Assembly: GCA_002729195.1 (NCBI GenBank)
Contig: PBTT01000084.1
Span: 1-57,259, forward strand
Source of the DNA: Acidiferrobacteraceae bacterium
Lineage (GTDB): Bacteria > Pseudomonadota > Gammaproteobacteria > Arenicellales > UBA868
Length of the DNA: 57,259 nucleotides
Reading direction: 5' to 3'
Numbering within the stretch: the stretch's first letter is position 1; every line of letters starts with the position of its first letter. This document shows positions 3,562-33,842 of the stretch, in pieces. Below the pieces are notes generated by a model. It worked only from the letters and a program-made list of their open reading frames with translations, was not told where the DNA came from and made no database searches. Position numbers and translations under genes: made by a program.

Positions 3562-3580
3562 GTTGTTTTATCTCGCGATT

Positions 3581-3836: not shown

Positions 3837-3878
3837 CGATCAACCAAGCCCGATCATCTTCGGTCGAGTAATTTTCAC

Positions 3879-14568: not shown

Positions 14569-15834
14569 TCACGATGCCACCGAGCGGCTCATGGAAGAGA
14601 CTCGGTAGAGAAGTTGCGGCTCTCGAAGGGTTCGGAAGCAGTCAAACGGGGATTCCTCCAGCAGAAGCAGATTGGCATGGTTGCCCTTGACGATATCCGC
14701 CGACGAACAACCCCAGAGTCGACGGGGAAGCGAAGTGGCCGAGGCGAGGACCTGTTCTACCGAAACACCGGCGTTTCGCAGGTGGAAAAGCTCATCGATC
14801 AAGCCGCGCCCATGGGCGACTCCGTAGCTGCCGGCGTCAGAACCCGCCAGGACCGGCACACCCAACTCGTAGGCCAGGGCCACATGTTCGTCGTGGTTCC
14901 TCAGGATTCCCCGCAGCCGATCACAGGTCTCTGAATTCCATCCAGCCAATCTCGGTTGACACAACTGAAAGGCCACCGGCGAATAGGTGGGCGTCCAGGC
15001 GATCCCCTTTTCCGCCATCACGTCCAGAATCCGACGGGTCATGAAAAAGCCGTGTTCGATGCAGTCGATTCCTGTTTCCACCGCGATCTTAAGCCCCTCC
15101 TCCCCACTGCAATGAGTGAAGGTAAGCAAACCCAACTCGCGCGCCGTTTCCACAATTCGCCTCGTCTCCTCCAGGGAAAACTGGGGGGGGCCTCTTACGA
15201 TCCCCTTCTCGAAATCGATGATCCCCGTGAGCAACACTTTCAACTGACCCGCGTTCGGGGCAACTTCCCGGATGACCCGAACAATATCGTCGGAGTCGAC
15301 CACCTCCCGAGCCATGAAACTGCCGTAACGCTTGGCTTTTCGAATGGCGATCCCCGCGCTGAGCATTTCCATTCGCGACCCGGAATCGTTGTCCAGTTCG
15401 CGCTTCATCTCCGTGTTGATGCCGTGAATGTCGCCAGCATCTCGAATCAGCGTGATTCCAGCATCAAGAGTCGCAGCCAGGTTGCTTCGCGCGACGCTCA
15501 ACATCGCTTCGCGCGGTGCCTTGAGGTACTCGCTGCGCTTCGGGAAAGACAACGTCGCGCCGTCCAGAAACGTGTGGCAGTGCGACTCGACCAGGGCCGG
15601 CATCACAAAGGATGTCCGGATGGTCATAATTGGACGTCCAACTGAGGTTGCCAATCCGGCGCGATCCGTATCAGCGAGGTCGCCGCTCACCACCTCCTGG
15701 ATCACCCCAGCCTTCGTCCCTGGAGACTCCGGAGGGCAGGCCTCATCCACCAGGATACTGTAGGGACCGTCCCCATGATGGTTCACCCCGTCGAAATAAC
15801 CGTCGGTTACAATGACGTATTGGCTCACGTTCAA
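14569..15834 (-). CDS. Amidohydrolase, imidazolonepropionase-like
   Basis: A 421-residue metal-dependent amidohydrolase. Visible ligands of the TIM barrel are HCH in LVESHCHTFLDG, the His of LLTFTHCSGEEG, EHGFFM, and the Asp of VLAGSDAGSYG. There is no signal peptide. The last residues (LLYRVSSMSRSVAS) do not look like the usual closing beta-sandwich strand of the family, so the C-terminus may be altered by a late frameshift. It is the last gene of the long minus-strand string and overlaps the preceding methyltransferase gene by ATGA. The substrate is unknown; in this family it could open a cyclic amide or cyclic imine. Confidence 0.75.
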   Translation of the reverse strand: MNVSQYVIVTDGYFDGVNHHGDGPYSILVDEACPPESPGTKAGVIQEVVSGDLADTDRAGLATSVGRPIMTIRTSFVMPALVESHCHTFLDGATLSFPKRSEYLKAPREAMLSVARSNLAATLDAGITLIRDAGDIHGINTEMKRELDNDSGSRMEMLSAGIAIRKAKRYGSFMAREVVDSDDIVRVIREVAPNAGQLKVLLTGIIDFEKGIVRGPPQFSLEETRRIVETARELGLLTFTHCSGEEGLKIAVETGIDCIEHGFFMTRRILDVMAEKGIAWTPTYSPVAFQLCQPRLAGWNSETCDRLRGILRNHDEHVALAYELGVPVLAGSDAGSYGVAHGRGLIDELFHLRNAGVSVEQVLASATSLPRRLWGCSSADIVKGNHANLLLLEESPFDCFRTLREPQLLYRVSSMSRSVAS

Positions 15835-16715
15835 TCCTCCCGGTAAAGTTGTTGCGTGCGAACGAGGATATCAAAGCCCGAACACTCCACTGCTTCCCTG
15901 AAACCGCGATAGACAAAGTTGTCCTCGTCCAATATCTGGTAATCGCGGCCGGGCGTTCCCAGGATCGTGTCCAGTCCCAGTGGCATCGCCATCGTCAGGA
16001 ATGCTGACTCCAGCCGGACCTTGAGCGGGCTGCCATCCAGCGCGGTCTTGGGCAGCATGATGCTCAGGTTGGATAGTCCCACCATCATGTGAATCCCCTT
16101 GAGGTCCGGGTCTGACCCGATCAACCGGATCGATTCAATGGCCCGTCTCGTCAAGCCTTCGGTATCTGCCGCCAGCGGCCCTATCGACACATCGATCAAA
16201 ATATCGTCGAGGCTCATGGAGTCTTCGCGCTGCAGAACCCTTTCGACCAATCTCTTTGCCGTCGCGTAAACCTCCGCCTCCGTGGTATTGGGGATCCTCT
16301 TCCCATTCTCGAGGCGTTCCGAAGCCATCAACACCACTCGGAAGGGCTGTTTTCCCACCAGGTCAAGCATCTCCAGCCGCAGTTCGGAAATCGAATTCAC
16401 AATCGCTTTGCACCCGTTCGCCTTGGCCGGGTCATAGGTGTCCAGGCAGATTTGCTGGACCTCCTTGTTGGGATAATCGAAGGAGAGAGGAACATCCACT
16501 GTTCCTTGCACGGAGCGAATCACGTCAACGAGAAAATCCGGATCATCCGTCGCGGCAGTGCCCACGTTGATCGTCAGATAGTGTACTCCCTTCCGGACCT
16601 GGGCGACGGCGAGCTCGCGGATTCCCTTCAGATCTTTGCTCTCCAGGAGCAGTTTCGAGGTAGTGAAGCCTGGGTTGATGCGTTCCCCTATGAGGGTCAG
16701 TTTTTCGATAGACAT
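15831..16715 (-). CDS. Pterin-binding methyltransferase (methyltetrahydrofolate:corrinoid type)
   Basis: A 294-residue single-domain protein of the dihydropteroate synthase-like TIM barrel superfamily: LIGERINPG at the start, then YLTINVGTAATDDP, SFDYPN, KAIVNSIS, ILIDVSIGPL and GLSNLSIMLP. These are the pattern of AcsE/MtvB-type enzymes that move a methyl group between a corrinoid and tetrahydrofolate. The true folate-synthesis enzyme is less likely because the gene overlaps a MetV-MetF fusion by 19 bases and an amidohydrolase by 4. Together with the UroD-family gene upstream it supplies the second half of a demethylase-type system. Confidence 0.8.
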   Translation of the reverse strand: MSIEKLTLIGERINPGFTTSKLLLESKDLKGIRELAVAQVRKGVHYLTINVGTAATDDPDFLVDVIRSVQGTVDVPLSFDYPNKEVQQICLDTYDPAKANGCKAIVNSISELRLEMLDLVGKQPFRVVLMASERLENGKRIPNTTEAEVYATAKRLVERVLQREDSMSLDDILIDVSIGPLAADTEGLTRRAIESIRLIGSDPDLKGIHMMVGLSNLSIMLPKTALDGSPLKVRLESAFLTMAMPLGLDTILGTPGRDYQILDEDNFVYRGFREAVECSGFDILVRTQQLYRED

Positions 16716-18016
16716 TCAGATTCGTTCTTAATTCGCCGGTCAGCCAGGTCCTCAATGACATCGAGCAGCACGCTGTGATCAGAACCGAACAACATCAAAT
16801 GAACGCCAGCCACGCCGGGAAAATCCCGAACGTCCTGAAGGATTTCCCTGGCCAGCGTTACACCCTCATGCCGGAGATCTTCCGCTCCGGCCAACCGTCG
16901 CCAGACTTCGGGCGGTAGCTTCACTCCGGGAATGTGCGAAACCATCTCCAACGCCGACCGAGACACGATCACCGGTATCCCCGCGAGGATGAACAATTCC
17001 TTGTCGAGTCCTTCCGCGACCACCAACTCCATGAATCGCCTGAATCCGGCGGTGTCCAGAATGGCCTGGGTCTGGATGAAGTCCGCCCCCGCGGCGGCTT
17101 TCTGTTTAAGCCGGCGGATGGGCACGTTGGTCGGCGTGCTGTAGGGATTGATGGCCGCGCCCAGGAACATTTTTGAAGGCCGGTCCGCCTTCTCCTTCAG
17201 GAAATGAATCACCCCTGTCTCGCGGAAGCACCGCGCTTCATACAACATCAAGGTCGAATCCATGTCGAACACCTGCTTGATTTTTGGATTACCGGCATAA
17301 GAATCGCCAGTCAGGCAGAGCATGTTGTGCACACCGTTCATCTCGTTCTCCATGATCTCGGAAATGAACGAGGTCTTGGTGTGATCACGGCACGTCGCCT
17401 GGCTGATCGGTTCAATCCCCAACCGGACAAGCTCCGCCGCGGCAACGGGCGAGGGCAAGGAGGGTTTGCCGTTCAAATACGCAGTGGCGTTGACTGCGTC
17501 GAACTGACCCCGCACAATCACGGCTTGCTCCCGGAAGCGGGCGAAGTCCGGACCGCGCGGGGCGCGAATCTCGCAAGTCCTGACAAACCTGCCGCTCCTC
17601 AACTTGGCTTCCAGTTTCGATACGGTTTGTTGCGGCAACGAAACACGATTCTTCGGAAGATCCAGATAAGGCAGGGGCGTGCGGCTCGCCTTGTCCTTGC
17701 CCGTGATCAGATTCAGGTAGGAGGAAGTGAAGTGAAGGCTTGAATCCGGGGACGGGATCAGCTCCGGCAGAGAAAAAGCGCCCTTGCTGGTTCGCCTGTG
17801 AATTCGCATCCAGACACATTCCTTATCGGGATAGATTTCGCACCCACCTTCCAACGTCCCCCCACACGGCCCATTCCTCAATCCTTTCGGACAACTCATC
17901 GGACACACCAGGCCGGTCTCAGAGAGGACACACTGCCCGCACGCATGACAATCAAACATCATCCCCTTGAAGAAAGCTTCCGTCCTGGCAATCAGCTTCG
18001 CAATCATCACCACCAT
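16697..18016 (-). CDS. Fused MetV-MetF: zinc-finger-type plus methylenetetrahydrofolate reductase
   Basis: A 439-residue protein in two parts. Residues about 15-65 are a Cys-rich MetV domain (CHACGQC, CPMSCPKGLRNGPCGG), the MTHFR C-terminal domain family of PF12225. Residues about 140-430 are a MetF TIM barrel (EIRAPRG, the TCRDHTKTSF substrate-loop region, DFIQTQAILD, AGIPVIV). In acetogens MetV and MetF are often separate proteins of one complex; here they form one chain. It interconverts methylene- and methyl-tetrahydrofolate, and in this setting probably oxidises methyl-H4F produced by the adjacent methyltransferase, although the direction cannot be read from sequence. Confidence 0.82.
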   Translation of the reverse strand: MVVMIAKLIARTEAFFKGMMFDCHACGQCVLSETGLVCPMSCPKGLRNGPCGGTLEGGCEIYPDKECVWMRIHRRTSKGAFSLPELIPSPDSSLHFTSSYLNLITGKDKASRTPLPYLDLPKNRVSLPQQTVSKLEAKLRSGRFVRTCEIRAPRGPDFARFREQAVIVRGQFDAVNATAYLNGKPSLPSPVAAAELVRLGIEPISQATCRDHTKTSFISEIMENEMNGVHNMLCLTGDSYAGNPKIKQVFDMDSTLMLYEARCFRETGVIHFLKEKADRPSKMFLGAAINPYSTPTNVPIRRLKQKAAAGADFIQTQAILDTAGFRRFMELVVAEGLDKELFILAGIPVIVSRSALEMVSHIPGVKLPPEVWRRLAGAEDLRHEGVTLAREILQDVRDFPGVAGVHLMLFGSDHSVLLDVIEDLADRRIKNESECLSKN

Positions 18017-18052
18017 CTAAACCCGCGGATCAGTTTTTACCCGCCTGGATAA

Positions 18053-19234
18053 TTAATCCAATTTGATCACCGAGATGGTGTAGGGTTTGTCGAACTTGGT
18101 GTTGATTCCCCCTGGAACGGGGAAGTCCATGTTGGTCACGATCAATTCGTTGCCGCGCATCACCACTTCACTGGGTTGATCAAGTCGTCCTCCCGATCCA
18201 TCGTTCTCCTCATCCACAGCCAGTGTCCGCACCGAGCCATCCGGATACACCACCTGGACCGCGTTGGCCAAGGAGTCGGCCACGTAAATTCTGTCGGTCT
18301 TCAAATCACAGAAGATCCCGTCGCACGATTTCATGAAGGGCGCCTTGGCGAAGAGGGTTGTTTCGGTCGGGTTACCCTTGTCGTCAAAAGTGGTTCGGTG
18401 CAGCGTGCCATCGGCAAAGTTGCCGCAGTAAAGGTTTCCCTTGCTGTCAAAGGTGAGGCCGTCGGCGCCAAAACCGACGTCAGGGTTGAATGTCTCGATG
18501 GTGGCGACCAGGTGCGGATCCTTCAAAAGCGGTGTTTTCAGCTGCGTGCCTTCCTCTGTCAGTTTGACGCGGAAAATGCCGCTGATGAGCGGTTGCTTGG
18601 GGTCGGGTCGCGGGACCATGCTGGTATCGCTGACGTAAAGGTAACCGTCGCGGATAATCACCGCGTTGGCCACCACCATGCCCTCGATCACCACAACAGG
18701 ATCACCGGCCGGATCGTAGTTCTTATCCAGGGGAACGCGCAGGACGCGGGAGTTGTTTCCCGGATTCTCCGGATCGGCGAACCATTGTAGATCGGTGACA
18801 AAGAGGTTTTTCGCTTCCGCGTCGACACAGATCCCGAACGGAAAAGCCTTGCCGGTGACGGGATGCTTGGGGGGATCGTAGTACTTCTTGACCTGGTTGT
18901 CCTTCGTGATCTTCAGCAGCACCGGCGGAGGATCCTGCTTTGACTTGTCCTCGGCCGTCGTGTAACTGTTGACGTTGGGCACGGCCACGATCACTTCACC
19001 GTTCGGCAACAGGCACATGCCGTCCGGAGTGTCGTGGCGGTCCGACAGTTCCACCAGCAGTTCGGCTTTCTTCAGTGGTTCCGAGCTGTTGCCCCCTTGA
19101 GCCTGCTCACCCGACCGCTCCTCCCCGGGCAAGGGATCGGCCCGGCGGGACTCCGAACATCCGGTGAACAACGCCACCGCGAGGACTGTAGTTGAAAGCG
19201 TAACAAGACGGATTGTATTTTTCATTGTCATCAT
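18053..19234 (-). CDS. SMP-30/gluconolactonase-like lipoprotein
   Basis: A 393-residue lipoprotein: signal peptide with lipobox LFTG-C at about 24-28. A six-bladed propeller of the SMP-30/NHL type follows (PDGMCLLPNGEVIVAVPN, GICVDAEAKNLFVTDL, GADGLTFDSKGNLYCGNF, CDGIFCDLKTDRIYVADS). It overlaps the gldA-like gene by ATGA. Members hydrolyse lactones or simply bind ligands; sited at the membrane surface it may process or sense the substrate of the operon. An internal ATG at codon 4 is an alternative start. Confidence 0.75.
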   Translation of the reverse strand: MMTMKNTIRLVTLSTTVLAVALFTGCSESRRADPLPGEERSGEQAQGGNSSEPLKKAELLVELSDRHDTPDGMCLLPNGEVIVAVPNVNSYTTAEDKSKQDPPPVLLKITKDNQVKKYYDPPKHPVTGKAFPFGICVDAEAKNLFVTDLQWFADPENPGNNSRVLRVPLDKNYDPAGDPVVVIEGMVVANAVIIRDGYLYVSDTSMVPRPDPKQPLISGIFRVKLTEEGTQLKTPLLKDPHLVATIETFNPDVGFGADGLTFDSKGNLYCGNFADGTLHRTTFDDKGNPTETTLFAKAPFMKSCDGIFCDLKTDRIYVADSLANAVQVVYPDGSVRTLAVDEENDGSGGRLDQPSEVVMRGNELIVTNMDFPVPGGINTKFDKPYTISVIKLD

Positions 19235-20349
19235 GATTTGTTTTCTGGTTGGAAAGTTAACCGTTCGGAACCCAGTTGATCGGCGGCCATCATCGCATCC
19301 ACCACGCCGTCTGATGTCACCTCGAAACAGTGGTTTGCGCAGAGTGAGCCCTCCCCGGCACAGATATCGCCCACCGTCCTGAGTTGTTCCCGGCCTACTT
19401 CCTTCATGTTCAATTGGGCGAACGTTACGGGCAGGCCGATCGCAATCAGGAAGTCAAAGATCTGGCACATGACGTCCACATCGGTGTCCTCGTCGAGGCA
19501 GAGCTGGGTGACGATGCCGAAGCTGACTTTCTCGCCGTGCATCATATCCTTGCACTCGGGAAAGTTGGAGAGAAGGTTGGCCACCATGTGGGCGGTGGCA
19601 AGGCCGCCGCTTTCAAAGCCCAGTCCTGAGAGGAGGACATTGGTTTCGATGATCTTCTCGACGGCGGGAGTGAGAAGTTGATGCTCCACCGCCCGCCTGG
19701 CTTCCACTCCGTATTCCATGAGGTTGTCGTAGGCGAGACGGGCGAGGGTCATGGCCGCGAGGGTTGAGACTCCGCCGCCCAGGTTGGTGGCCCGGGTCTT
19801 GTAGGCCGCCTCGGCTTCAACCCAGGTGGCCAGCGCGTCGCCCATCCCGCTGGCAAAGGTGCGGACCGGTGCGTGGGCAATGACCAGCGAATCGACCAGG
19901 ACAATGTCCGGATTGAAGGGCCAGCATTCGAACCCTTCGAAGTTTCCCTTCTCATCGTACCACACGGTGGCGGCACTGGTGGGCGTGTCGTTGGAGGCGA
20001 TGGTGGGGCAGGTCATCATCTTGAGACCGGCTTCCACGGCGGCGGCCTTGGCAGTGTCGAGCGCCTTTCCCCCGCCGGCACCAACCATGACGTCCGCGCC
20101 AACATCCGCCGCCGCCGCGGCAACACGCGTCGCTTCCGCCTTGGTCGATTCTCCCTGGAACTCGATATCGGACGGTTCCAGGCCCGCTTCCTTAAGGCTG
20201 GCCCGGACGGTGGAGCCGATGATCCTCTTGATGCCGGGGGACCAAAGGATGATCGGTTTTTGGCCAAGCAACTTGATGTAGCTGCCGATTTCGCCGAGCA
20301 CACCCCGGCCCTGCACGTATTTGTTAGGGGCAATCAGTACGGTTTTCAT
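19231..20349 (-). CDS. gldA: Glycerol dehydrogenase-like (GldA family)
   Basis: A 372-residue NAD-dependent, metal-containing polyol dehydrogenase. The N-terminus (APNKYVQGRGVLGEIGSYI) and the dinucleotide motif VGAGGGKALDTAK are diagnostic of glycerol dehydrogenases. Metal ligands are visible as the Asp of SGMGDALATW and the two His of TAHMVANLL and MMHGEKVSFG. It would convert glycerol to dihydroxyacetone or act on a related vicinal diol. It is coupled by ATGA overlaps both to the kinase gene before it and to the lipoprotein gene after it, so a role in the same pathway is very likely. The exact polyol is not certain. Confidence 0.85.
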   Translation of the reverse strand: MKTVLIAPNKYVQGRGVLGEIGSYIKLLGQKPIILWSPGIKRIIGSTVRASLKEAGLEPSDIEFQGESTKAEATRVAAAAADVGADVMVGAGGGKALDTAKAAAVEAGLKMMTCPTIASNDTPTSAATVWYDEKGNFEGFECWPFNPDIVLVDSLVIAHAPVRTFASGMGDALATWVEAEAAYKTRATNLGGGVSTLAAMTLARLAYDNLMEYGVEARRAVEHQLLTPAVEKIIETNVLLSGLGFESGGLATAHMVANLLSNFPECKDMMHGEKVSFGIVTQLCLDEDTDVDVMCQIFDFLIAIGLPVTFAQLNMKEVGREQLRTVGDICAGEGSLCANHCFEVTSDGVVDAMMAADQLGSERLTFQPENKS

Positions 20350-21905
20350 GAACCCTCCGTTTTGTTGGTGGTCTGTTTAATGTCGCGATTGAGATCCTTC
20401 AGCGCCGGGTAAAGGCGCTCGAACACCTGGTAGCCGTCTCGATAACGTTCGTTCAGTTTCAGGTCCGGTTCGTAGACCTCGCCCGGCCTGGAGACCTGAT
20501 CAAAAGCCTCCTGTTCATTTTTGTAGAGGCCCACCCCGATGCCGGCCAGGAGAGCTGCGCCGAGCGGTGTTGCCTCTTCCAACGGGAGAACCTCCAGCGG
20601 CAAACCGGCCATGTCGGCTTTGTTCTGCATGGCAAACCGGTTCCGCGTGCCTCCGCCCACCGAGACGATTTTGTCGGCCGGAAGGTCCAGGCCGGATTTG
20701 AGGTTCTCGAGGATTTGCACGAATTGGTAATTGAGACCTTCAATCAACGATCGGAGCATGTCGCCCCGGGTCACGGTGTTGCGAAGGCCGACGAAGGCAC
20801 CCATGGAGTCAGGATCGACGATCGGAAACGTGCTGCCACAAAGGTGGGGCAGGAAGAGGACCCCATTGGCGCCCGGCGGCGATTCCTGTGCCGTCGCCAT
20901 CAGGTTGTTCCAGTCAGATCCTCCTTCGGCTTCGGCCTTCCGTTTTTCCTCCGAACCATACTCCCGACGAAACCACTCGGTGGCTTCACCGGCAACCGCC
21001 GAGCCCATCACAGCCCAGGTGTCGCGCGCGACGTGGGAGTCGACCCAGGCGCCCATCTCACACGCTTCCGGCGTCAACATCGGTTTGGCCAGGGCGGACA
21101 CGATGATGTCCCAGGTTCCGAGCACCGTGAGGACAACACCCGGTTTGAACGCCCCGGAGGGCAATGCTCCGCAAAGAAAATCGTGTCCTCCCAGGACGAC
21201 CGGTGTCCCCTTGGCCAACCCGGTGGCCTTGGCCGCCTCGGCATGAACTTCGCCGATGATCGTGCCGCTGGGTTGGGGCTCGCACAGGAGCTCAGGATCA
21301 ACGCCGGAAATCTTCAGGAGTTCCTCCGACCAGTGTCGCTTCTGCTGATCAAAGAGCAGCGTGTTGGAGGCCATGGAATAATCTGTGGCGTACTCCCCGC
21401 ATAACATGAAGTTGACGAAATCCTCGATCAGCAGGTATTTGGCGGTCTTTTCAAGAACGGCCGGCTCGTGCTCGCGCATCCAAAGCAGCCGTAGGGCGGT
21501 GTTGCAATGCCAGACGGGGTTGCCGCTGATCGCGAATTGTTTCTGCGCGCCGACATTTTTCAGCCACCACTGTTGCTGCGGTCTTGTACGGGGGCAGGTC
21601 CAACTGATAAAGGGATAAAGCCAGTGTCCCTTCCTGTCCATCGGGACGGCGTCCATGCCCATCCCGGTAACAGCGACACCCTTGATACGCGCCGGGTTGT
21701 CGAGTTGGGTTGTCGCCTCCCGAAGCGATTCCCTCACCCCGTCCCAGATCTGTTCCGGTTTCCAGATCGTCCAGTCCGGATGTTCCGGGTCGGGATTGAA
21801 ACGTTGAGTGGGCCGGCTGGCCTGTGCGCGGGCATTACCGTTCAGGTCGTAAACCATCGCCTTTAGGCTGGTAGAGCCCAGGTCGATGCCTGCTAGGTAG
21901 TCCAT
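20346..21905 (-). CDS. FGGY-family carbohydrate kinase
   Basis: A 519-residue cytoplasmic kinase. The N-terminal ATPase-fold phosphate loop is AGIDLGSTSLKAMVYD, the middle has GHDFLCGALPSG, and the C-terminal FGGY signature region reads VSVGGGTRNRFAMQNKADM followed by GAALLAGIGVG. Length matches xylulokinase/glycerol kinase relatives, and overall it looks closest to the xylulokinase branch. It overlaps the glycerol dehydrogenase start by ATGA and follows the aldolase gene by 20 bases. The three genes make a possible oxidise-phosphorylate-cleave series for a ketose or polyol. The sugar specificity cannot be told from sequence alone. Confidence 0.85.
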   Translation of the reverse strand: MDYLAGIDLGSTSLKAMVYDLNGNARAQASRPTQRFNPDPEHPDWTIWKPEQIWDGVRESLREATTQLDNPARIKGVAVTGMGMDAVPMDRKGHWLYPFISWTCPRTRPQQQWWLKNVGAQKQFAISGNPVWHCNTALRLLWMREHEPAVLEKTAKYLLIEDFVNFMLCGEYATDYSMASNTLLFDQQKRHWSEELLKISGVDPELLCEPQPSGTIIGEVHAEAAKATGLAKGTPVVLGGHDFLCGALPSGAFKPGVVLTVLGTWDIIVSALAKPMLTPEACEMGAWVDSHVARDTWAVMGSAVAGEATEWFRREYGSEEKRKAEAEGGSDWNNLMATAQESPPGANGVLFLPHLCGSTFPIVDPDSMGAFVGLRNTVTRGDMLRSLIEGLNYQFVQILENLKSGLDLPADKIVSVGGGTRNRFAMQNKADMAGLPLEVLPLEEATPLGAALLAGIGVGLYKNEQEAFDQVSRPGEVYEPDLKLNERYRDGYQVFERLYPALKDLNRDIKQTTNKTEGS

Positions 21906-21925
21906 AACATTTTTCCGGATTCACA

Positions 21926-22735
21926 TCACGCATCCGCCCCATGAACGATTTGCCGGTAACGCGCCACTTCGGCGGCGATGTCTTCCGCTTCAAAAATGTT
22001 TCGTCCAAACACCAGGCCACGCGCACCCGCTTTCATCGACTCCTCGGCCAGCTCATAGGCCATCTGCGGCGTTTCACACTTGGCGCCGCCCGCCAGGAGC
22101 AATGGCACCGGACAGGTTTCCGCAAGCTCCGACACCGCCTCAAGGCTGCCCGGGTACTGGCTCTTGACCAGATCCGCCCCAAGCTCCGCGGCGACCCGGC
22201 ATGAAAGGGAGAGCACCTTGGGATCCTTACGATCCTCCGGATTGGTGTTCTCCCGCGCGCTCAGCGCCTCGATGACGTAGACCATCCCCAACCGCTCGCA
22301 CTCGCGGGCGATGCGGGCATTGCGCTGGATTTCCAGCTTCTCTATCTCCGGATCTTTGTGCCCTATGTAGAGGTAGGACATGACCGCATCGGCGCCGGCA
22401 GCGAGGGCGTTTTCGACGCTGGCCAGTTCCACGGTCGCACCCACCGGATACGGCAGCACTTTGCGAACGTAACTCTGGTAATCGAAATGCACGAAGAGCG
22501 CGGGACGCCTCTTGCCAATGAACGCTTCCTCCAGCGAAGTAACCATTCCTGGCGCCACCATCAGGGCGTCAACGTCCGCCATGGCCAGAGTGACCTCTTT
22601 CATCTCCCCCAGGGAACGCATTCCCGACAACGGTCCCATGATGACTCCGTGGGAGTAGGCCACCACCAGGCTGTTGCCACTCTTTTCGTTAAAGATCCGG
22701 CCCAACCGGATTTTCTTGCCCGTTCTTGAATCCAT
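21926..22735 (-). CDS. Class I aldolase of the FbaB/LsrF (DeoC-like) family
   Basis: A 269-residue TIM-barrel aldolase. The Schiff-base lysine is K191 in ADLVKSQYPG, which matches the ADLVK-x-x-YxG signature of archaeal-type fructose-bisphosphate aldolase, LsrF and related enzymes. The phosphate-binding segment is LLAGGAK and the last strand GARGLVFGRNIF. It sits 42 bases after the UroD-family gene and 20 bases before the kinase gene. LsrF acts on phosphorylated AI-2, but no lsr transporter or LuxS-related context is present, so I favour cleavage of a phosphorylated ketose from the operon substrate. Confidence 0.8.
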   Translation of the reverse strand: MDSRTGKKIRLGRIFNEKSGNSLVVAYSHGVIMGPLSGMRSLGEMKEVTLAMADVDALMVAPGMVTSLEEAFIGKRRPALFVHFDYQSYVRKVLPYPVGATVELASVENALAAGADAVMSYLYIGHKDPEIEKLEIQRNARIARECERLGMVYVIEALSARENTNPEDRKDPKVLSLSCRVAAELGADLVKSQYPGSLEAVSELAETCPVPLLLAGGAKCETPQMAYELAEESMKAGARGLVFGRNIFEAEDIAAEVARYRQIVHGADA

Positions 22736-22777
22736 ATCGTTCTTTCTTTTTTTCCTTCACCAACCCTAAATCCAATG

Positions 22778-23920
22778 TTATTGGACCGGGTAATTTCCAT
22801 AGGCTTCCACGGCATCGCGAATGGCCACGAGGTTGGCCGGGGGAGCATCGCTTTGGACATTGTGAGCCGGCGCCACGATGTAGCCACCTCCCGGTCCCAG
22901 CGCGCGGATATAGCGCCGCACCTCGGCCATCACTTCTTCCCGTGTCCCAAAAGGGAGGAGATGCTGAAGGTCGATCCCACCGTGAAAAACCAACTGCTCG
23001 CCAAAGTCGCGTTTCAGCCCCTCCGGTTCCATTCCCTGGGCCAGCGGCTGGATCGGATCGAGCACATCCAGCCCCATGTCAATCCAGCTGGGGATAAACG
23101 GGCGCACGTTGCCACAGGAATGCACCATCAGTTTGGCCTGGGGATTCTTCTCCTTGATCTTTCGCCGGGCTGCATTCCACAATCGTTCGAAACGGGGCCG
23201 GACCATTTCCTCAAACATCTTCGGAGAAATCATCGGCGCCAGCTGCGTTCCGAGATCCTCGCCGCTCAGGCGCACGATATCGATCAGGTCTCCCACTTCG
23301 TCCATGCCGATCTCCATGAGACGCACAGCAATATCGGTGATTTTGTCCATGATCGCGCAGACAATCCCGGGTTTCATCGCCATGTCCATCAGCCAGTTCT
23401 CCATCCCGTAAACCCACCACGACTGTTCCCAGATGGAATTGGCCGGCTTGAACATAATGGCCCGGTCAGTTTCCCTCCTGATCTGCAAGACCTGCTCCCG
23501 ATAGCATGCGATGCGACCGTCATCCTCCGGATCTGGCCAGGGATAACGCTCGATATCCTTGAGCGTCGCGTTGGCCAGCGGAAACTTGACCATCTCATAG
23601 TAGTAACTGCCATCTTCCCGCACCACCTTCTCCCGTCCAACACCCCACTCGTCGTAGAGCAGCCCGTTGTCCGTCTTCGGTGGATGCCAGTTCGCCGGCT
23701 TCTGTAGACTGGTGTAGTGAACATCCAGTTGCATGGCATCAAGGAGGTCGCGGCTGGCAGAGACGTCCGTCCAGGTGCCCATCTTCTTTTCCGGTTCCGG
23801 CGGCAAACCCAGGTGTTCCCTCAGTCGATGGTATATATCGACCGTCAACGACATGTTCAAGGGAATACGATCAGGCTCCCTGTGTTCCAGCACAGCCAGC
23901 ACGCGTTCCCGAGAAGTCAT
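22778..23920 (-). CDS. UroD-family corrinoid-type methyltransferase (MtaA-like)
   Basis: About 380 residues from ATG 23920 (MTSRERVLAVLEHREPDRIP), preceded by GGGGAAGG; the frame stays open to 23980. The fold is that of uroporphyrinogen decarboxylase, but the HxC motif in LMVHSCGNV followed by FHGGIDLQHLLPFGT is the zinc-ligand pattern of MtaA/MtbA and O-demethylase methyltransferases. Residues GGGYIVAPAHNVQSDAPP form the usual C-terminal loop. Haem-pathway HemE is unlikely because the neighbours are GlpD, an aldolase and folate one-carbon genes. It would remove a methyl group from a substrate, or transfer one, using a corrinoid protein that is not in this window. Confidence 0.75.
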   Translation of the reverse strand: MTSRERVLAVLEHREPDRIPLNMSLTVDIYHRLREHLGLPPEPEKKMGTWTDVSASRDLLDAMQLDVHYTSLQKPANWHPPKTDNGLLYDEWGVGREKVVREDGSYYYEMVKFPLANATLKDIERYPWPDPEDDGRIACYREQVLQIRRETDRAIMFKPANSIWEQSWWVYGMENWLMDMAMKPGIVCAIMDKITDIAVRLMEIGMDEVGDLIDIVRLSGEDLGTQLAPMISPKMFEEMVRPRFERLWNAARRKIKEKNPQAKLMVHSCGNVRPFIPSWIDMGLDVLDPIQPLAQGMEPEGLKRDFGEQLVFHGGIDLQHLLPFGTREEVMAEVRRYIRALGPGGGYIVAPAHNVQSDAPPANLVAIRDAVEAYGNYPVQ

Positions 23921-23967
23921 GGTCAACCCTTCCCCGATTTTTCCCGTTTCAGTCACTCTCCCACTTT

Positions 23968-25650
23968 CTATCCTAACCAAGCCTTGCCCTCCCCTGCGCG
24001 CGGATGGAAGCGACGAATATAGTCTCGGTAGGAAGCCTGTTCTTCCTCAACCCGTTCATCACTCCAAGCCAAGTACTTCCGTGCCACCCGCACTGCGTTT
24101 TCAACCCCGATCGGGTCGAAGGCAGACTCATAACCCACCATTGTCCGCCGGAGCAGCACGTCGACAAGGGTCTCCGCAAACTCGTGTCGGAACGCGAACA
24201 GAATCTCCGCGCCGATGGCACCGGTGTTCGGGTCGAGAGGTTGCTTGAGTTCGTCTCCTGTATCTTTGACTAGAGTCAATATTTCCGCACTTCGCGTCCC
24301 GTAAACGCGGAGGAGGCGTTCCCGGCTTTTTTCCGGAATTCCCGCTTCTTTTCCAAACTGCGCGCAAAAGCTGGGAAAATCCTCACTGCCACCGGGGAGG
24401 ACCATCGCGTCCGTGCGACAACCCGAGCCTGGTCGGCGCGAAGCACTCGAAGAAAGTTTGCCGAGGACACAATCCACAGTTTCCCGGGCCAGGCTCCGGA
24501 AGGTGCTGAACTTCCCGCCCACGATGGAGATCAGCCCTTCCACACGTGGTCCGTGATCATAAACGATGTGCTTGCGCGTGATGCTCCCTTCGGCGCCCTG
24601 CGGCATGTAAGGCAGGGGCCGCACACCCGCATAGGTAAACCGTATTGAATCCCGCGTCAGCTTTGCCCGGGGGAATGCCCGGTTCGTCTCCTCCAGAAGA
24701 TAATGGACCTCCCTCTGGCCCGCGGCCGCATCGTCGGGGTCATCGTCGTATCGAATATCCGTTGTCCCGAGCAAGTAACACCCGTTCCAGGGCAGCACCA
24801 CAACCTGCCGCTGGTCTGCAACGGCTTCAAAGAAACAGGAGTCAATCGGTCCGTCAACAAACGAATCAACGACCAGGAAGCTTCCCTTGGTCCCGCCGAT
24901 GAGCCGCTCTGTTTTCGGGCCGGTTTGCAGGACCCGATCGACCCAGGGACCGGCAACGTTAACGGTAACCGTCGCCCGCACCTTGTAGGTGCGTTGGCCA
25001 ATGACATCCCGGAAATGGACTCCTTTCACCCGTCCCTGCTCGACCATCAAATCCTCCACTGCCGCGTAGGTGATGATCCCGGCACCCTCCCGAGAGGCAG
25101 ACAGCGCATTTTCGATGCAAAGCCGTTCAGCGTAATCGGCGTAGGCATCGGTCATCACTCCCGCCCCGGTCAATCCGTCCGGGTTCAGGCCGGGCATACG
25201 CTCAAGTGCCGACTGACGCGAGAGAGTCTTGTGGACACCGAGGGACGAGCGGGAGCAGATCGCAAAAAGGTCCAGGACCGTCAGGCCTGCCTTAACCTGC
25301 CAGGGCTTGTGCTTGTTCGACTGATAGAAGGGGATGAACAGGGGCTGTGGCTTTACCAGGTGCGGAGCGATCCGGAGGAGGTTTGCTCGTTCCCGCAAGG
25401 ACTCCCGAACCAGGCCGATATCACCATGCTCCAGGTAACGCAGGCCACCATGAATCATCCGGCCGGAATAACTTGAGGTTCCACTGCCGATATCCCCCTT
25501 GTCCAGCAGCAGAACCTTCAGACCCCGCATGGCCGCGTCCCGGGCAATGCCCGTGCCGTTGATGCCGGCCCCGATCACGATGACATCAAAACTCTCGCGG
25601 TCGATATCCGCCGGGACCGGTGTATGACGTTGTGTGTGCGAGAATCTCAC
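23968..25650 (-). CDS. glpD: FAD-dependent glycerol-3-phosphate dehydrogenase family
   Basis: About 560 residues. The FAD-binding Rossmann motif is VIVIGAGINGTGIARDAAMRG, with MIHGGLRYLEHGD, VNVAGPW and VGGKFSTFRSLA following as in GlpD. I choose GTG at 25650 because it overlaps the stop codon of the decayed mmsA (GTGA), which fits translational coupling; a TTG at 25659 gives three more residues. GlpD oxidises glycerol-3-phosphate to dihydroxyacetone phosphate at the membrane, feeding quinones; the same fold serves as erythritol-phosphate dehydrogenase, which the adjacent FGGY kinase would also suit. If coupling matters, decay of the upstream gene may affect its expression. Confidence 0.85.
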   Translation of the reverse strand: MRFSHTQRHTPVPADIDRESFDVIVIGAGINGTGIARDAAMRGLKVLLLDKGDIGSGTSSYSGRMIHGGLRYLEHGDIGLVRESLRERANLLRIAPHLVKPQPLFIPFYQSNKHKPWQVKAGLTVLDLFAICSRSSLGVHKTLSRQSALERMPGLNPDGLTGAGVMTDAYADYAERLCIENALSASREGAGIITYAAVEDLMVEQGRVKGVHFRDVIGQRTYKVRATVTVNVAGPWVDRVLQTGPKTERLIGGTKGSFLVVDSFVDGPIDSCFFEAVADQRQVVVLPWNGCYLLGTTDIRYDDDPDDAAAGQREVHYLLEETNRAFPRAKLTRDSIRFTYAGVRPLPYMPQGAEGSITRKHIVYDHGPRVEGLISIVGGKFSTFRSLARETVDCVLGKLSSSASRRPGSGCRTDAMVLPGGSEDFPSFCAQFGKEAGIPEKSRERLLRVYGTRSAEILTLVKDTGDELKQPLDPNTGAIGAEILFAFRHEFAETLVDVLLRRTMVGYESAFDPIGVENAVRVARKYLAWSDERVEEEQASYRDYIRRFHPRAGEGKAWLG

Positions 25651-26471
25651 TCCGGCCAATAACGCTGGGAAATCACCTTTGACTCAGTAAAGAACTGCAC
25701 CACCGCCTTCTCCTGAGCCTTGACATCGGCGAAGATCGAAACCTTCATGCCGCCGAGCGGGAGAGACGCCATCGGCGCCGGAATACCGATATTCACACCG
25801 ATCATGCCGATCCGGGTTCGGAGTTTTTGAACTTTCTCACGTGATGGCCGTTCTGGGTGTAGATGGAGGCGCCGTTGCCGTATTGGTGGTCGTTGATGAT
25901 CTGGATCGATTCATCGAGCGTAGTCGCCTTCAGAATCACCATCACCGATCCGAAGATCTCGGTTTCATGAATCTTCATCTGCGGCTTTACGTCCGTAAAC
26001 ACATCAACGAAAAATTGAACGGCGCAATCAGGCCAGACACCCCCAAGGGCAAACGCAGCACCTCGCCATCAGTGCCCACAGCGTCATCGATCAACTTGTC
26101 GCCCTGCTGCAGGACCGGCATGCCGCAAGCCACTTCAGCATTCTCCAATGCCCGCTTCACCTCGGCCCTGGAATCAGGGAGTGATTTGCCATTCTCCTAG
26201 GAAATGTGTCAGGCCAGCTTTTCCGCATCGACGCAAATCCGCTCGACCAGTTTGAAGAGCAACTCTCAGCGCTGTGAAACCGGCGTGGCACTCCATCCGG
26301 AAAAAGCCGCCTTGTCCGCCGCGACAGTCTGGTCGATTTGCTCAGTAGATGAGAGAGCGGCACCCTGCAAATCGTCTGGCCCGTGGCGGAATTCTCCACG
26401 TCGAGATGGTCCTGCGTCCCGGGTTGAATCCAGTCTCCTCCCACGTAGTTCCTCAGGTTTGCGATGCTCAT
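25647..26471 (-). pseudogene. mmsA: Decayed (methyl)malonate-semialdehyde dehydrogenase
   Basis: ATG 26471 begins MSIANLRNYVGGDWIQPG, then GQTICRVPLS, the start of CoA-acylating MmsA/IolA-type aldehyde dehydrogenases. The frame then shifts (QIDQTVAA, WSATPVSQR), meets stops after SQR and near DAEKLA, and continues (KSLPDSRAEVKRALENAEVACG, GLIAPFNF). The central part, including the catalytic Cys and most of the NAD site, is missing: sequence jumps to DVKPQMKIHETEIFGSV. A second frameshift follows HHVRKFKN, then IGMIGVNIGIPAPMASLPL and FFTESKVISQRYWPE to a stop at 25647-25649. The family is about 480-500 residues; under 60 percent of the length remains. It lies 10 bases after the Fe-ADH gene, as an operon partner would. 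Confidence 0.88.
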
Positions 26472-26481
26472 CGTTTCAAAC

Positions 26482-27759
26482 CTACCACCCGACCAACGCC
26501 TCTTCGAACATGCTGGCCAACTCCTTCTCACCGGCGGGCCGGGGAGACAGTTTGGTCACTCGATGCTGCGGCAGGGTGCCTTCGACCAAGGCCGGGATAT
26601 CTTCCCGCGTGTAACCAATCGCACTCAGCCCGTTGGGAACCCCCAGACGTTCCATGAAGGCCGTAATGCGGTCAGCCAGGAGTCGGCCGGCATCCACGGG
26701 CTTGGCCCGCGAGACATCGACACCCAGGAAACCGGCTGCCTCAAGATGGCGTTCGGGCGAGGCGCAGGCGGTGAAGTGAAACACGGCGGGGGCGTTAAGT
26801 ATGACTGAGATACCGTGAGGCACCAGGGGCCAGTCAACCTGGTAGCCCGGTGGCCAGTAATCGCGCACCAGTCCGGAAACCGGATAAGACATGCCATGCG
26901 GCAGATGCACCCCGGCATTCCCGAAACCGACGCCGGCATAGGAGGCCGCCAATAGCATCCAGCTTCGCGCCTCTTCATCTTCGGGATCTTCAACCGCGCG
27001 AACGAGGAAACGGGAAACCAGCCGCAGCGCCTCGGCCGACCAGATATCGCTGATCGGATTGGAACCCTGGTAGGCGGGACGCAACAACGGCCGATCAGGT
27101 GCGGAACGCTGATCAAAGGGCAACGCGGTGTAGGACTCCACGGCATGGCTCAACACGTCAAGTCCCGTCGCCGCCACAGCCAGTCGGGGCAAGGTCCGGG
27201 TGTTGATCGGATCGATCAGGCCAAGAGTCGGCTTCAATCGCCGATGAGCTATCCCGGTCTTGGCGTGCATCTTGACCAGGTCAAAGATGGCCACACCGGT
27301 GGTTTCGCTCCCTGTGCCGGAGGTGGTCGGGACAGCCACCAGCGGCTTCAATTCCCCCGGCACAGGTTTGCCCTCGCCAATGGGAGGATTCACATACTTG
27401 AGAAGATCGGCGGGGTAACAGGAATAGAGATTGGCCGCCTTGGCCGTATCAATGGTGGATCCGCCGCCAACCGCCACGAAAGCATCGAACGGCTGCTCCC
27501 GCGCAAACGAGATCGCTTCCTGGAAGGATTCGTCCGTCGGCTCAACGCGAACACGGTCAAAGAGGGAGAATTCAACCTTCTGCCGTTCCAGTGATTCCAG
27601 CACCGTGGCCACCGGCGGCAGCTTGCTCAGATTGGGATCCGTCACCACCATGACCCGACGGGCACCCATATCGACCAAGTCCATGCCAATTTCCTCGGTC
27701 ACCCCGTGCCCGAAGCGCACGCTCGATGTAGCCATCTCAAAAGCTGTGTCGCATCGCAT
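26482..27759 (-). CDS. Hydroxyacid-oxoacid transhydrogenase-like iron alcohol dehydrogenase
   Basis: A 425-residue type III Fe-ADH. It closely follows the animal ADHFE1 enzyme through its length, as I recall that sequence: CDTAFEMA, GMDLVDMGA, LSKLPPV, RVEPTDESF, FVAVGGGSTIDTAKAANLY, VPTTSGTGSETTGVAIFD, PAYQGSNPISDIW, GNAGVHLPHGMSYP and GTLPQHRVTKL. Metal ligands would be the Asp of ATGLDVLSHAVESY and following His residues. ADHFE1 couples 4-hydroxybutyrate oxidation to 2-oxoglutarate reduction. Beside an mmsA-type gene, an alternative is 3-hydroxypropionate oxidation (DddB-like). It is the first gene of the long minus-strand string and has an FNR-type box 38 bases before its ATG. Confidence 0.85.
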   Translation of the reverse strand: MRCDTAFEMATSSVRFGHGVTEEIGMDLVDMGARRVMVVTDPNLSKLPPVATVLESLERQKVEFSLFDRVRVEPTDESFQEAISFAREQPFDAFVAVGGGSTIDTAKAANLYSCYPADLLKYVNPPIGEGKPVPGELKPLVAVPTTSGTGSETTGVAIFDLVKMHAKTGIAHRRLKPTLGLIDPINTRTLPRLAVAATGLDVLSHAVESYTALPFDQRSAPDRPLLRPAYQGSNPISDIWSAEALRLVSRFLVRAVEDPEDEEARSWMLLAASYAGVGFGNAGVHLPHGMSYPVSGLVRDYWPPGYQVDWPLVPHGISVILNAPAVFHFTACASPERHLEAAGFLGVDVSRAKPVDAGRLLADRITAFMERLGVPNGLSAIGYTREDIPALVEGTLPQHRVTKLSPRPAGEKELASMFEEALVGW

Positions 27760-30327: not shown

Positions 30328-31779
30328 TTACGATATCACCATCTTGTTCATGAATTCATGGACAGGCATTTTTTCCAGAGAAGCCTGATTCTGGCACACG
30401 TCATATATCTGATTCGCCTGCTCTGGTTCGAAATGGGCTTTTAAATTCGTCATGAATTTCCTCTCAAGTATGGGGAATCCTTCGTCCCTCCGCCGTTTGT
30501 GCCCCAGAGGGTATTCACATGACTCACCGACGGGAGGACTTCCATCTTTAAAATAGACCTCAATGGCATTTGCAATGGAGCGTTTGTCCGGTTCATGATA
30601 TTCACGAGAGTATCTTTCGTCTTCCTTAACAAACATCTTACTTCTCAATTCATCAATCACGGGATGACATTTGTGAAAAGAGTCTTCGTAATATTCAGCT
30701 TTCAGATCTCCAAAACCAAGCACGACGGCCGTCATGTATTGTAAGCAGTGATCCCTGTCGGCCGGATTGTTGAGCTCTCCTTCCTTGGAGATAATGCGAA
30801 TGGCTGACTCATGAGTCGTTATCTCTATGCGTTCAATCGAATCCAGTTTATCTTTGATTTGAGGATGAAGTTTTTGAGCCGCTTCACATGCCGTCTGGGA
30901 ATGGAATTCCGCTGGAAATGAAATCTTAAAAAGGATGTTCTCCATGACGTAGGCGGTGAAAGGCCGCTGAAACTTAAATGCCTTGCCTTTGAAAGAGACA
31001 TCATAAAAGCCCCAGATCTTTGCACTGAGGGCGCCGGGTACCCCCATTTCGCCACGCAGGGAAATATCAGCCAATCGGACCCCTCTGGAAGTGGCGTCAC
31101 CTGCTGCCCAAGATTTACGTGACCCGGTATTGGGCGCATGGCGATACGTTCTCAAGGAACTGCCGTCAACCCAGGCTTGTGAAACTGCCGCCAACGTCTG
31201 GTCGCGATCTCCACCCATCATTTGCGTAACAACGGCTGTCGTCGCTACTCTAACGAGCAGAACATGATCGAGTCCAACACGGTTGTAGCTGTTCTCCAGA
31301 GCGAGAACACCTTGGATCTCATGCGCCTTGATCATTGCCTCGAGAACGTCACGCATGACTAAAGGATCCCCGCCCTCTGCACTATATTTTTGTGACAGAT
31401 AGTCGGCAACGGCAAGTATCCCTCCCAGATTGTCTGATGGGTGCCCCCACTCTGCTGCAAGCCAAGTATCATTGAAGTCAAGCCAGCGAATCATACAACC
31501 AATATCCCAGGCAGCCTTAATATGATCGAGAATATATGAAGTCCCCGGAACTCTAGCCCCATAGGGAACTTTTGTCCCCTCAACGAGTGGACCAAGGTGC
31601 TTGGTGCATTCAGGAAAGTTCAAGGCCAGAAACCCACAGCCCAAGGTGTCCATTAGGCAATGCCTGGCTGTATTTAAAACATCTTCCGATTCAATTTTAT
31701 AGTCGACAACGTAATCAACTATTTCTTGAATTACTTGATCGTAATCTGGTCTATCGGCAATGTCTACTTGTGAACTTAT
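30328..31779 (-). CDS. prpD: 2-Methylcitrate dehydratase with probable ATA start
   Basis: Dehydrates 2-methylcitrate to 2-methyl-cis-aconitate in the methylcitrate cycle. The protein follows E. coli PrpD closely by memory: [81 protein letters not shown] and NNPADRDHC. The first ATG (31653) is well inside the conserved region. The frame is open further upstream and codes [23 protein letters not shown], which matches the family N-terminus. No ATG, GTG or TTG is present there; ATA at 31777-31779 stands where the family Met stands, eight bases after AGGAG (ATT at 31780-31782 is the alternative). From ATA the product is 483 residues, the same as E. coli. Confidence 0.88.
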
Positions 31780-31811
31780 AATAGTTTCTCCTGAATAATT
31801 AATCGTTTGAA

Positions 31812-32942
31812 TTACGATCTCTCCTGAATGGGCACAACCGTTCTTGCATCCGGTCCGGCATACTCCGCGCTAGGACGGATGATACGATTGTTACCGCGTT
31901 GTTCCTTAACGTGAGCAGCCCAACCGGTCAGTCTGGACATCACAAAAATAGGTGTAAACAATTTGGTTGGAATACCCATGAAATGATAAGTCGAGGCATG
32001 GAAGAAGTCGGCATTGCAAAAAAGTTTCTTTTCCCGCCACATGACCTCTTCGCAACGCTCCGAAATGGCGTACAATTTTTGATCCTCCACGAAATCAGAT
32101 AACTGTTTCGACCATTTCTTGATGATCACGTTACGCGGATCGGATTCTCTGTAAACAGCATGACCGAACCCCATGATTTTTTCCTTGCGCCCCAGCATGC
32201 CCAAAACCTCTTCCTCCGCATGATCAGGGCCATTAAACTTTTCGATCAAGGCCATCGCTGCCTCGTTGGCGCCTCCATGCAAAGGCCCCCTCAACGTTCC
32301 AATCGCACCACTGATGCAGCTATGAATGTCTGAAAGTGTCGATGCACATACTCTGGCTGTAAAAGTTGAGGCATTGAATTCATGTTCAGCATAAAGCACA
32401 AGGGAAACATGCATCACTTTTTCAAACAATTCGGCCGGTTTTTCACCAGACAACATATGTAAAAAATGAGCACCGATTGAATCGTCATCGGTCTCGGTTT
32501 CGATTTTAACACTCTCATGTGAATATTTGTACCAATAGCATATCATTGAAGGAAGAACGGCTAAAAGTCTGTCGATGTGATGATCCTGCTCGAAAAAATC
32601 CTTTTCTGTTTCGAGGTTGCCCAAGAAAGAACATCCCGTCCGCATGACATCCATGGGGTGGGCATCTGCTGGAATATTTTCCAGAACCGTTTTCAGGGCA
32701 TCGGGCAAGCCACGCAAAGTCTTGAGTTTACTCGAGTATTCATCCAGTTGACTTTGGTTGGGAAGTTCTCCTCCTTTGGTGATCAGGTAGGCCACTTCTT
32801 CAAAAACGGTATTTTCGGCCAAATCCGCGATATCATACCCGCAGTAAGTCAGTCCCGACCCCGTTTTACCAACCGTGCAAAGCGCTGTCTGACCGGCTAT
32901 CTGGCCTCGCAAACCTGCGCCACCCAATTTTTTGTCCGTCAT
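31812..32942 (-). CDS. prpC: 2-Methylcitrate synthase
   Basis: A 376-residue citrate-synthase-family enzyme that condenses propionyl-CoA with oxaloacetate. Typical PrpC features: [29 protein letters not shown], then [22 protein letters not shown] (catalytic His), [15 protein letters not shown] (second His) and [19 protein letters not shown] at the C-terminus. It lies between prpB (15 bases) and prpD (32 bases), confirming methylcitrate rather than citrate synthase. Like its two partners it is visibly lower in GC than the rest of the window. Confidence 0.93.
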
Positions 32943-32957
32943 CCTGGTCTCCTTTTT

Positions 32958-33842
32958 CTATTTATTATCTTTTTGGCTGAAAAGTTCATCAAGTTTGTCT
33001 TCATATTGATGATAATTTAAATAATCGTAAAGTTCATTTCTTGTCTGCATTGTTTCAACAACAGCATTCTGATCGCCAGCGCTGCGTATTCTATGATATA
33101 CATTTTCTGCAGCTTTGCTCATCGCTCGAAAAGCACTCAATGGATATAGCACCATATCCACACCCCAAGTCTGCAAAGTTTTTGTATTGTAAAGTTCAGT
33201 TACTCCAAATTCAGTCATATTGGCGAGGATGGGTGCATTCAGCGCTTTTCTGAAAGCCCGATAATGCTCCTCTGTTTGCACAGCCTCCACAAAAATCCCA
33301 TCGGCGCCCGCTTCTATATACTTTTTAGCGCGTTCAACAGATGCCTCAAGGCCCTCACTCACAAACGAATCCGTTCTGGCCATGATAAAAAAACTTTCGT
33401 CATAACGCGCATCGACAGCTGCCTTGATACGATCAAGCATTTCTTCCGTTGTAACAATCTGTTTTCCCGGACGATGCCCGCAGCGCTTTGGAGCCACCTG
33501 GTCTTCCATATGCACGGCAGCAACACCGGCACGAATCATTTCTTTAATGGTTCGATGGATACTAAACGCCCCACCCCATCCCGTATCGATATCGACGAGC
33601 ATCGGTACGGACGTGATTGCTGTAATTCGTCTGGCATCTTCAATAACATCATTAAGAGATGTCATGCCAATATCTGGTAAACCGTGAGATGCATTTGCGA
33701 CCCCGGCGCCAGAAAGGTATATGCTACGAAAACCAGCCTTTTCTGCCATCATTGCACAATAGGCATTAACCGTCCCCGCTATTTGCAAGGGTTTCTCAAT
33801 CTGAAGTGCATCTCTAAATGCCTGTCCTGCGAGTCTACTCAT
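32958..33842 (-). CDS. prpB: 2-Methylisocitrate lyase
   Basis: A 294-residue PEP mutase/isocitrate lyase-family enzyme that cleaves 2-methylisocitrate to pyruvate and succinate. Motifs: SGAGVANASHGLPDIG, VDIDTGWGG, AVHMEDQVAPKRCGHRPGK with the catalytic Cys in KRCGH, and ILANMTEFG. It is the first gene of prpB-prpC-prpD. No prpR regulator, acnD or prpF is next to it, so the aconitase step must be supplied elsewhere. The strong similarity to gammaproteobacterial proteins and the lower GC suggest transfer. Confidence 0.93.
   Translation of the reverse strand: MSRLAGQAFRDALQIEKPLQIAGTVNAYCAMMAEKAGFRSIYLSGAGVANASHGLPDIGMTSLNDVIEDARRITAITSVPMLVDIDTGWGGAFSIHRTIKEMIRAGVAAVHMEDQVAPKRCGHRPGKQIVTTEEMLDRIKAAVDARYDESFFIMARTDSFVSEGLEASVERAKKYIEAGADGIFVEAVQTEEHYRAFRKALNAPILANMTEFGVTELYNTKTLQTWGVDMVLYPLSAFRAMSKAAENVYHRIRSAGDQNAVVETMQTRNELYDYLNYHQYEDKLDELFSQKDNK

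Follow-up and report, generated by a model that had tools for sequence, protein, structure and literature searches.

The systems MtvABC, OdmABCD, MtoABCD and CdmBCA are close described counterparts of a gene string that lies on the minus strand, at positions 14569-27759, of contig PBTT01000084.1 (57,259 nucleotides; this whole stretch was analysed and is called the window), which is filed under an Acidiferrobacteraceae assembly, GCA_002729195.1. The string and these systems have in common a methyltransferase I (MT I) candidate of the UroD superfamily, a pterin-type methyltransferase II (MT II) candidate, transfer of methyl to folate, and an activator that is possibly encoded elsewhere. It is known that MT I enzymes of O-demethylase and haloalkane systems belong to the UroD superfamily, that their activators are often encoded elsewhere and that zinc is not always needed (PMC13222342, PMC8630106), and there are established cases of UroD-superfamily MT I enzymes whose activators are unlinked (PMC13222342). 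In contrast to the four systems, the string carries neither a corrinoid protein nor an activator, the methyltransferase role of its UroD protein is a prediction, and its genes are interleaved with those of a sugar kinase, an aldolase and dehydrogenases and include an amidohydrolase. We propose, with a probability of roughly 40%, that the string comes from an Akkermansiaceae-like bacterium and joins an operon for carbohydrate or polyol breakdown, which includes a UroD-type methyltransferase of its own, to the folate-side genes of corrinoid-dependent demethylation.

Several other systems resemble parts of the string. The chloromethane utilisation (Cmu) system, consisting of CmuA, CmuB, CmuC and MetF2, likewise combines a UroD-type protein, a pterin methyltransferase and MetF. 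CmuA is a UroD protein fused to a corrinoid domain. It acts as both MT I and corrinoid protein (PMC13222342), whereas the window UroD, which has weak matches to MtaA and CmuA and also a weak CmuC match, contains PF01208 only, and no halocarbon context was seen at the string. The MtgBCD-MetF2 module for glycine betaine in marine Roseobacter also passes methyl to folate and then to a dedicated MetF; MtgB, however, is an MttB-family enzyme, PF06253 (PMC12478193), and neither such an enzyme nor betaine genes are present in the string. A betaine-like substrate, which had been one option in an earlier reading of the sequence alone (the sequence-only reading), was dropped because no gene of the string supports it. 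On the carbohydrate side, fucose and rhamnose catabolism of Verrucomicrobiota (PMC8857213) and GlpK-GlpD polyol operons resemble the string in the FGGY kinase, the aldolase, the Fe-ADH or GldA enzymes, fucosidase-family glycoside hydrolases and a RhaT-like permease found in relatives. Unlike in those systems, no microcompartment genes were recognised in the string, the aldolase is of the DeoC/LacD class I type, and GlpD and UroD are extra. Finally, demethylation of 6-O-methyl-galactose in marine Flavobacteriia would do the same chemical job of taking a methyl off an algal sugar ether, in a P450-dependent, oxidative reaction that yields formaldehyde (PMC10033563), whereas the route proposed for the window would be corrinoid-dependent and would yield methyl-folate.

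Reading of the open reading frames together with Pfam and NCBIfam identified ten intact genes and one pseudogene in the string, which are listed here in the order of transcription.

26482..27759, minus strand: iron-containing alcohol dehydrogenase (Fe-ADH), generic; Pfam PF00465 148.7 bits, best NCBIfam match 198 bits where 550 are needed, no equivalog
about 25650..26472, minus strand: remnant of an MmsA-type aldehyde dehydrogenase (ALDH), a pseudogene with frameshifts and an internal deletion
23968..25659, minus strand: GlpD-like FAD polyol-phosphate dehydrogenase; DAO and DAO_C, PRK12266 320 bits (cut-off 360)
22778..23980, minus strand: UroD-superfamily protein, candidate MT I; PF01208 91.8 bits, weak MtaA/CmuA matches
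21926..22735, minus strand: class I aldolase of the DeoC/LacD (DhnA/LsrF-like) family; PF01791 105 bits
20346..21905, minus strand: FGGY sugar kinase, xylulo-/fuculokinase-like; XylB 289, fuculokinase 246 and GlpK 163 bits, all under cut-off
19231..20349, minus strand: GldA-type glycerol/diol dehydrogenase; NF006941 411 bits, over the cut-off of 336
18053..19234, minus strand: lipoprotein with an SGL/gluconolactonase-like propeller (lactonase in the text); PF08450 36 bits
16697..18016, minus strand: MetV-MetF fusion (MetVF), acetogen-type MetV domain plus MTHFR, methylene-tetrahydrofolate (methylene-THF) reductase; PF12225 and PF02219
15831..16715, minus strand: pterin-binding methyltransferase (MeTr, AcsE-like), candidate MT II; PF00809, PRK07535 106 bits
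14569..15834, minus strand: amidohydrolase of the Xaa-Pro/Arg carboxypeptidase-ochratoxinase type; PF01979

The sequence-only reading had described eleven genes here. It had the genes, their strand and order and the outer limits of the string right, with the correction that one of the eleven is a pseudogene; every family name it used is backed by Pfam and NCBIfam. It had also counted four overlaps of four bases and one of 19. The 19-base overlap (MetVF/MeTr) was found, but only three are of four bases (FGGY/GldA, GldA/lactonase and MeTr/amidohydrolase); GlpD and UroD overlap by 13 bases only with a TTG start and do not overlap at all from downstream starts. The lactonase and MetVF genes are 36 bp apart. 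Between Fe-ADH and GlpD there is a gap of 822 bp that contains the ALDH remnant. Three fragments of the remnant match the intact MmsA-type ALDH of the Akkermansiaceae metagenome-assembled genome UBA7890 at 33-51% identity, with residues ~187-406 (~220) deleted. The mechanically assigned TTG start of GlpD falls within the end of this remnant, and the intact gene in UBA7890 lies nearby on the opposite strand. No match to known RNA families, cobalamin riboswitches included, was found. The part from GlpD to the amidohydrolase is not a chance run, because its sub-orders recur in other genomes. Below, GlpD to lactonase is called the sugar block, and MetVF, MeTr and the amidohydrolase are called the C1 (one-carbon) trio.

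We then considered from which organism the window (contig C99 of a 2.38 Mb assembly) comes. Its tetranucleotide distance to other sampled contigs of the assembly was 0.28-0.35, compared with about 0.10-0.25 within the assembly, while its distance to contigs of UBA7890 was 0.11-0.20. Only one rpoB is present in the assembly. Its product reaches ~2000 bits with E. coli RpoB and at most about 1280 with the more distant bacterial RpoB chains compared, indicating that the main organism of the assembly is a gammaproteobacterium. Moreover, the proteins of the window share 71-92% identity with their counterparts from the same region of UBA7890. Composition, RpoB and these orthologs together make it very probable that the window was binned wrongly and is an Akkermansiaceae-like contig of Verrucomicrobiota. 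The stated contamination of the assembly is 0.9% despite this contig. A search of the genome for a corrinoid protein and a RACE-type activator, which had been suggested as a check, did give matches, all on contigs other than the window and with PF14574 (RACE) only on C18; as these contigs are chiefly gammaproteobacterial and the window is very probably misbinned, the test is invalid and the matches were rejected as evidence for the window organism. One short contig, C111 (L038), has UroD-like, MeTr-like and corrinoid protein matches and an odd composition within the assembly, and is possibly a second stray contig; it probably does not belong to the same organism as the window, its corrinoid protein being only 45-47% identical to those of UBA7890.

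UBA7890 is the closest relative, and its contigs C13, C106 and C151 join by exact end overlaps of 120 and 95 bases, which lie within FGGY and within MeTr. The possibility that its two gene sets sit on unrelated contigs was ruled out by these overlaps, which place them in one neighbourhood. The order there is GlpD, UroD, aldolase, FGGY, GldA, lactonase, RhaT-like permease, MmsA-type ALDH (opposite strand), Fe-ADH and PrpB/C/D, followed by an acyl-CoA synthetase, several unrelated genes, a PSCyt-type gene, MetVF, MeTr and the amidohydrolase. Identity between window and UBA7890 was 72% for GlpD, 80% for UroD, 92% for the aldolase, 90-92% for FGGY, 82-83% for GldA and 81% for the lactonase, and on the C1 side 81% for the PSCyt-type gene, 72% for MetVF, 71-76% for MeTr and 62-65% for the amidohydrolase. 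Genes for RACE, for an MtaA-like UroD and for a corrinoid protein follow on C151, 24-29 kb beyond the amidohydrolase, so that sugar block, C1 trio, RACE and corrinoid protein all fall in one stretch of ~55 kb; a second corrinoid protein and a UroD MT I-like gene are on contig C8. The UBA7890 Fe-ADH at the comparable place is only 31% identical to that of the window and is thus not its ortholog, and the window PrpB, PrpC and PrpD are 52-61% identical to the set that stands between the two UBA7890 gene sets. These values (31-61%), far below those of the block (72-92%), would fit a separate recruitment of the same functions. A chimeric contig, in which the sugar block and the C1 trio came together only during assembly, would also account for the window, whose contig is in the wrong bin and whose lactonase-MetVF junction is so far unique to it. 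Such an artefact is very unlikely, given that composition is uniform along the contig and that both sides match the same region of UBA7890 at similar identity (71-92%).

On the C1 side of the string, MetVF carries DUF5981 (MetV) and MTHFR in one protein of 439 aa, as expected of the acetogen-type MetV-MetF, and MeTr combines a Pterin_bind domain with invariant residues D80, N107, D175 and N216 at its putative pterin/methyl site, as an MT II that passes methyl to tetrahydrofolate would. A scan of genome contigs with the single UroD protein as query gave no match. With a MetVF alignment as the query, we obtained at least nine loci (UBA7890 included), 57-73% identical, from Verrucomicrobiota, Planctomycetota, Proteobacteria and Armatimonadetes. 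Among the matches listed, six loci (L059, L060, L062, L063, L064 and L067) have a corrinoid protein in the vicinity of MetVF, several have RACE and UroD genes there, and the whole trio of MetVF, MeTr and amidohydrolase occurs in six loci outside UBA7890. That MetVF and MeTr form the folate side of corrinoid demethylation systems is supported by these corrinoid proteins, RACE activators and UroD methyltransferases beside MetVF-MeTr in related genomes.

The window UroD is a protein of 400 aa with HSCG and APAHN motifs and no corrinoid domain, and so is not a CmuA-type fusion. It lies between GlpD and the aldolase in both the window and UBA7890, indicating that it belongs to the sugar block. Two relatives in Verrucomicrobiota, L203 (41% identity) and L204 (38%), have both motifs in common with it and a stand-alone corrinoid protein directly beside them; at L203 a GH2 glycoside hydrolase (GH) gene precedes the UroD, and an MtaA-like UroD follows the corrinoid-linked UroD. 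These UroD-corrinoid loci (L203 9060-11926, also with GH2 and GH116; L204 9579-10673) are candidate self-contained corrinoid demethylases, placed in a carbohydrate cluster in the case of L203. By this comparison the window UroD is a likely candidate for an MT I.

A number of observations weigh against the proposed joining of the two gene sets. No corrinoid protein (B12-binding_2 plus B12-binding domains) and no RACE activator (PF14574) is encoded in the window. In UBA7890 the sugar set and the MetVF set share one orientation, but about 18 kb separates them, and the lactonase-MetVF junction is not kept, since MetVF follows the PSCyt-type gene and the RhaT-like permease follows the lactonase; the junction is thus special to the window so far. 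Long synteny of two related genomes is in itself no proof of shared function. All six trio loci outside UBA7890, among the matches listed, are free of sugar genes. Conversely, two genomes have kinase blocks free of C1 genes: G542 has GldA-GlpD-UroD-FGGY with a GH29 fucosidase adjacent, and G663 has UroD and RhaT-FGGY-lactonase. The window FGGY is 60% identical to that of G542 and 50% to that of G663, the window GldA is 61% identical to that of G542, and the window lactonase is 42% identical to the one beside FGGY in G663. The block is uncommon, because FGGY gave matches at E <= 1e-90 in only three of the 388 sampled genomes of the phylum. It is plausible, although at less than even odds, that two independent sets were placed end to end by rearrangement; the C1 trio would then serve other methyltransferases, such as the UroD MT I-like ones encoded on C8 and C151 in UBA7890, and the sugar-block UroD would depend on a different route or methyl acceptor. 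The trio in six genomes of several phyla, with different UroD methyltransferases and no sugar genes, the stand-alone sugar block in G542 and G663 and the different junction in UBA7890 all agree with this, whereas both Akkermansiaceae genomes hold the two sets in one neighbourhood and in one direction, 36 bp apart in the window. The sequence-only reading had taken unlinked sets in relatives as grounds for giving up its proposal; the two sets share one neighbourhood in UBA7890 and are separate beyond that lineage.

The role of the UroD protein is also in question. None of the six top-scoring homologs after the ortholog (35-38% identity) has a corrinoid neighbour, and the UroD proteins found again with the kinase block, those of G542 and G663, share only 23-28% identity with the window UroD and lack its HxC motif. 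The protein might be no methyltransferase but, for example, a TIM barrel of a sugar-binding or lyase type in a sugar operon that performs no demethylation. This would agree with UroD members in sugar clusters free of corrinoid genes (L056 on a Chloroflexota plasmid, L210 and L211), whose sequences and metal motifs vary widely. However, we consider it improbable, as the two subfamily members that adjoin corrinoid proteins have both motifs in common with the window UroD.

The amidohydrolase was examined separately. Its metal-site residues H85, H87, K199, H241, H261 and D333 (HxH-K-H-H-D) are invariant in seven homologs, and with its TIM barrel they place it in the Xaa-Pro/Arg carboxypeptidase-ochratoxinase group, to whose characterised members it is 17-21% identical. 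The predicted structure (predicted local distance difference test score 85.7) has 2qs8, 3mtw and 4c60 as best folds, with a template modelling score of 0.78 to 2qs8, and thus most resembles Xaa-Pro carboxypeptidases, Arg carboxypeptidases and ochratoxinase. We searched an amidohydrolase alignment against 392 genomes of the phylum of G102 (Planctomycetota) and 297 of the order of G104 (Rhodospirillales) at E <= 1e-60. The amidohydrolase gene directly adjoins MeTr in 21 of the 21 genomes with a match (loci L221-L241), of which 18 are independent, as G102, G108 and G104 had supplied rows of the alignment; MetVF also lies within the 1.5 kb flank in 12 of the 21. Since the pairing with MeTr is constant and independent of which UroD is present, this suggests that the amidohydrolase helps to handle folate or corrinoids and is not tied to a single substrate. 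Literature searches for amidohydrolases with corrinoid and folate found no paper that describes a MeTr-amidohydrolase pair, and the pairing seems undescribed.

We next asked what the substrate could be. The FGGY protein scores best as a xylulo- or fuculokinase, and its 163 bits against GlpK are far from the GlpK cut-off of 590. Two further groups of genes on the same strand flank the string, the first beyond the end of the amidohydrolase gene and the second upstream.

541..9042, minus strand: glycoside hydrolase genes in a row, GH43-like, GH141-like and GH95, identified by Pfam
30328..33842, minus strand: PrpB, PrpC and PrpD, methylcitrate-type; PrpD by Pfam, PrpB and PrpC by eye from the sequence

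The GH row appears to be a fucose-type polysaccharide set, and in relatives RhaT-like permeases and GH29 accompany the sugar block. Verrucomicrobiota including Akkermansiaceae consume fucose- and rhamnose-rich polysaccharides (PMC8857213). Because the genes nearby suggest a sugar that may be a 6-deoxyhexose, our leading guess for the substrate is a methylated 6-deoxyhexose or a related polyol.

Under the proposed reading of one operon joined to a folate half, both gene sets would act on this one substrate. The cell would take up a sugar or polyol (perhaps a 6-deoxyhexose) in O-methylated form and demethylate it with the UroD protein as MT I; MeTr, as MT II, would pass the methyl to tetrahydrofolate, and MetVF would oxidise methyl-THF to methylene-THF. 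The demethylated sugar or polyol would be phosphorylated by the FGGY kinase, oxidised by GlpD and split by the aldolase, and the C3 alcohol or aldehyde products may be handled by GldA and Fe-ADH. The sequence-only reading had proposed that a methylated compound is demethylated and then catabolised. This is partly supported: the lineage does have every component of a corrinoid demethylation pathway in the surroundings of the sugar block, but the direct lactonase-MetVF junction is not conserved.

Polysaccharides of algae and plants often contain methoxy sugars. The route for removing their methyl that is documented in the literature we found is oxidative and releases formaldehyde (PMC10033563). 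It is possible, though on balance rather unlikely, that Verrucomicrobiota degrading algal-type polysaccharides demethylate O-methylated sugars or polyols by a corrinoid- and folate-dependent UroD enzyme encoded in the sugar operon, and not by P450, and that MeTr has, across several phyla, a constant partner not described before, the carboxypeptidase-type amidohydrolase. The MeTr-amidohydrolase pair offers a directly testable protein of undescribed function in C1 metabolism. If the proposal is true, a corrinoid route within the sugar operon would keep the methyl group as folate-bound C1, and vitamin B12 supply would be tied to polysaccharide turnover by Verrucomicrobiota.

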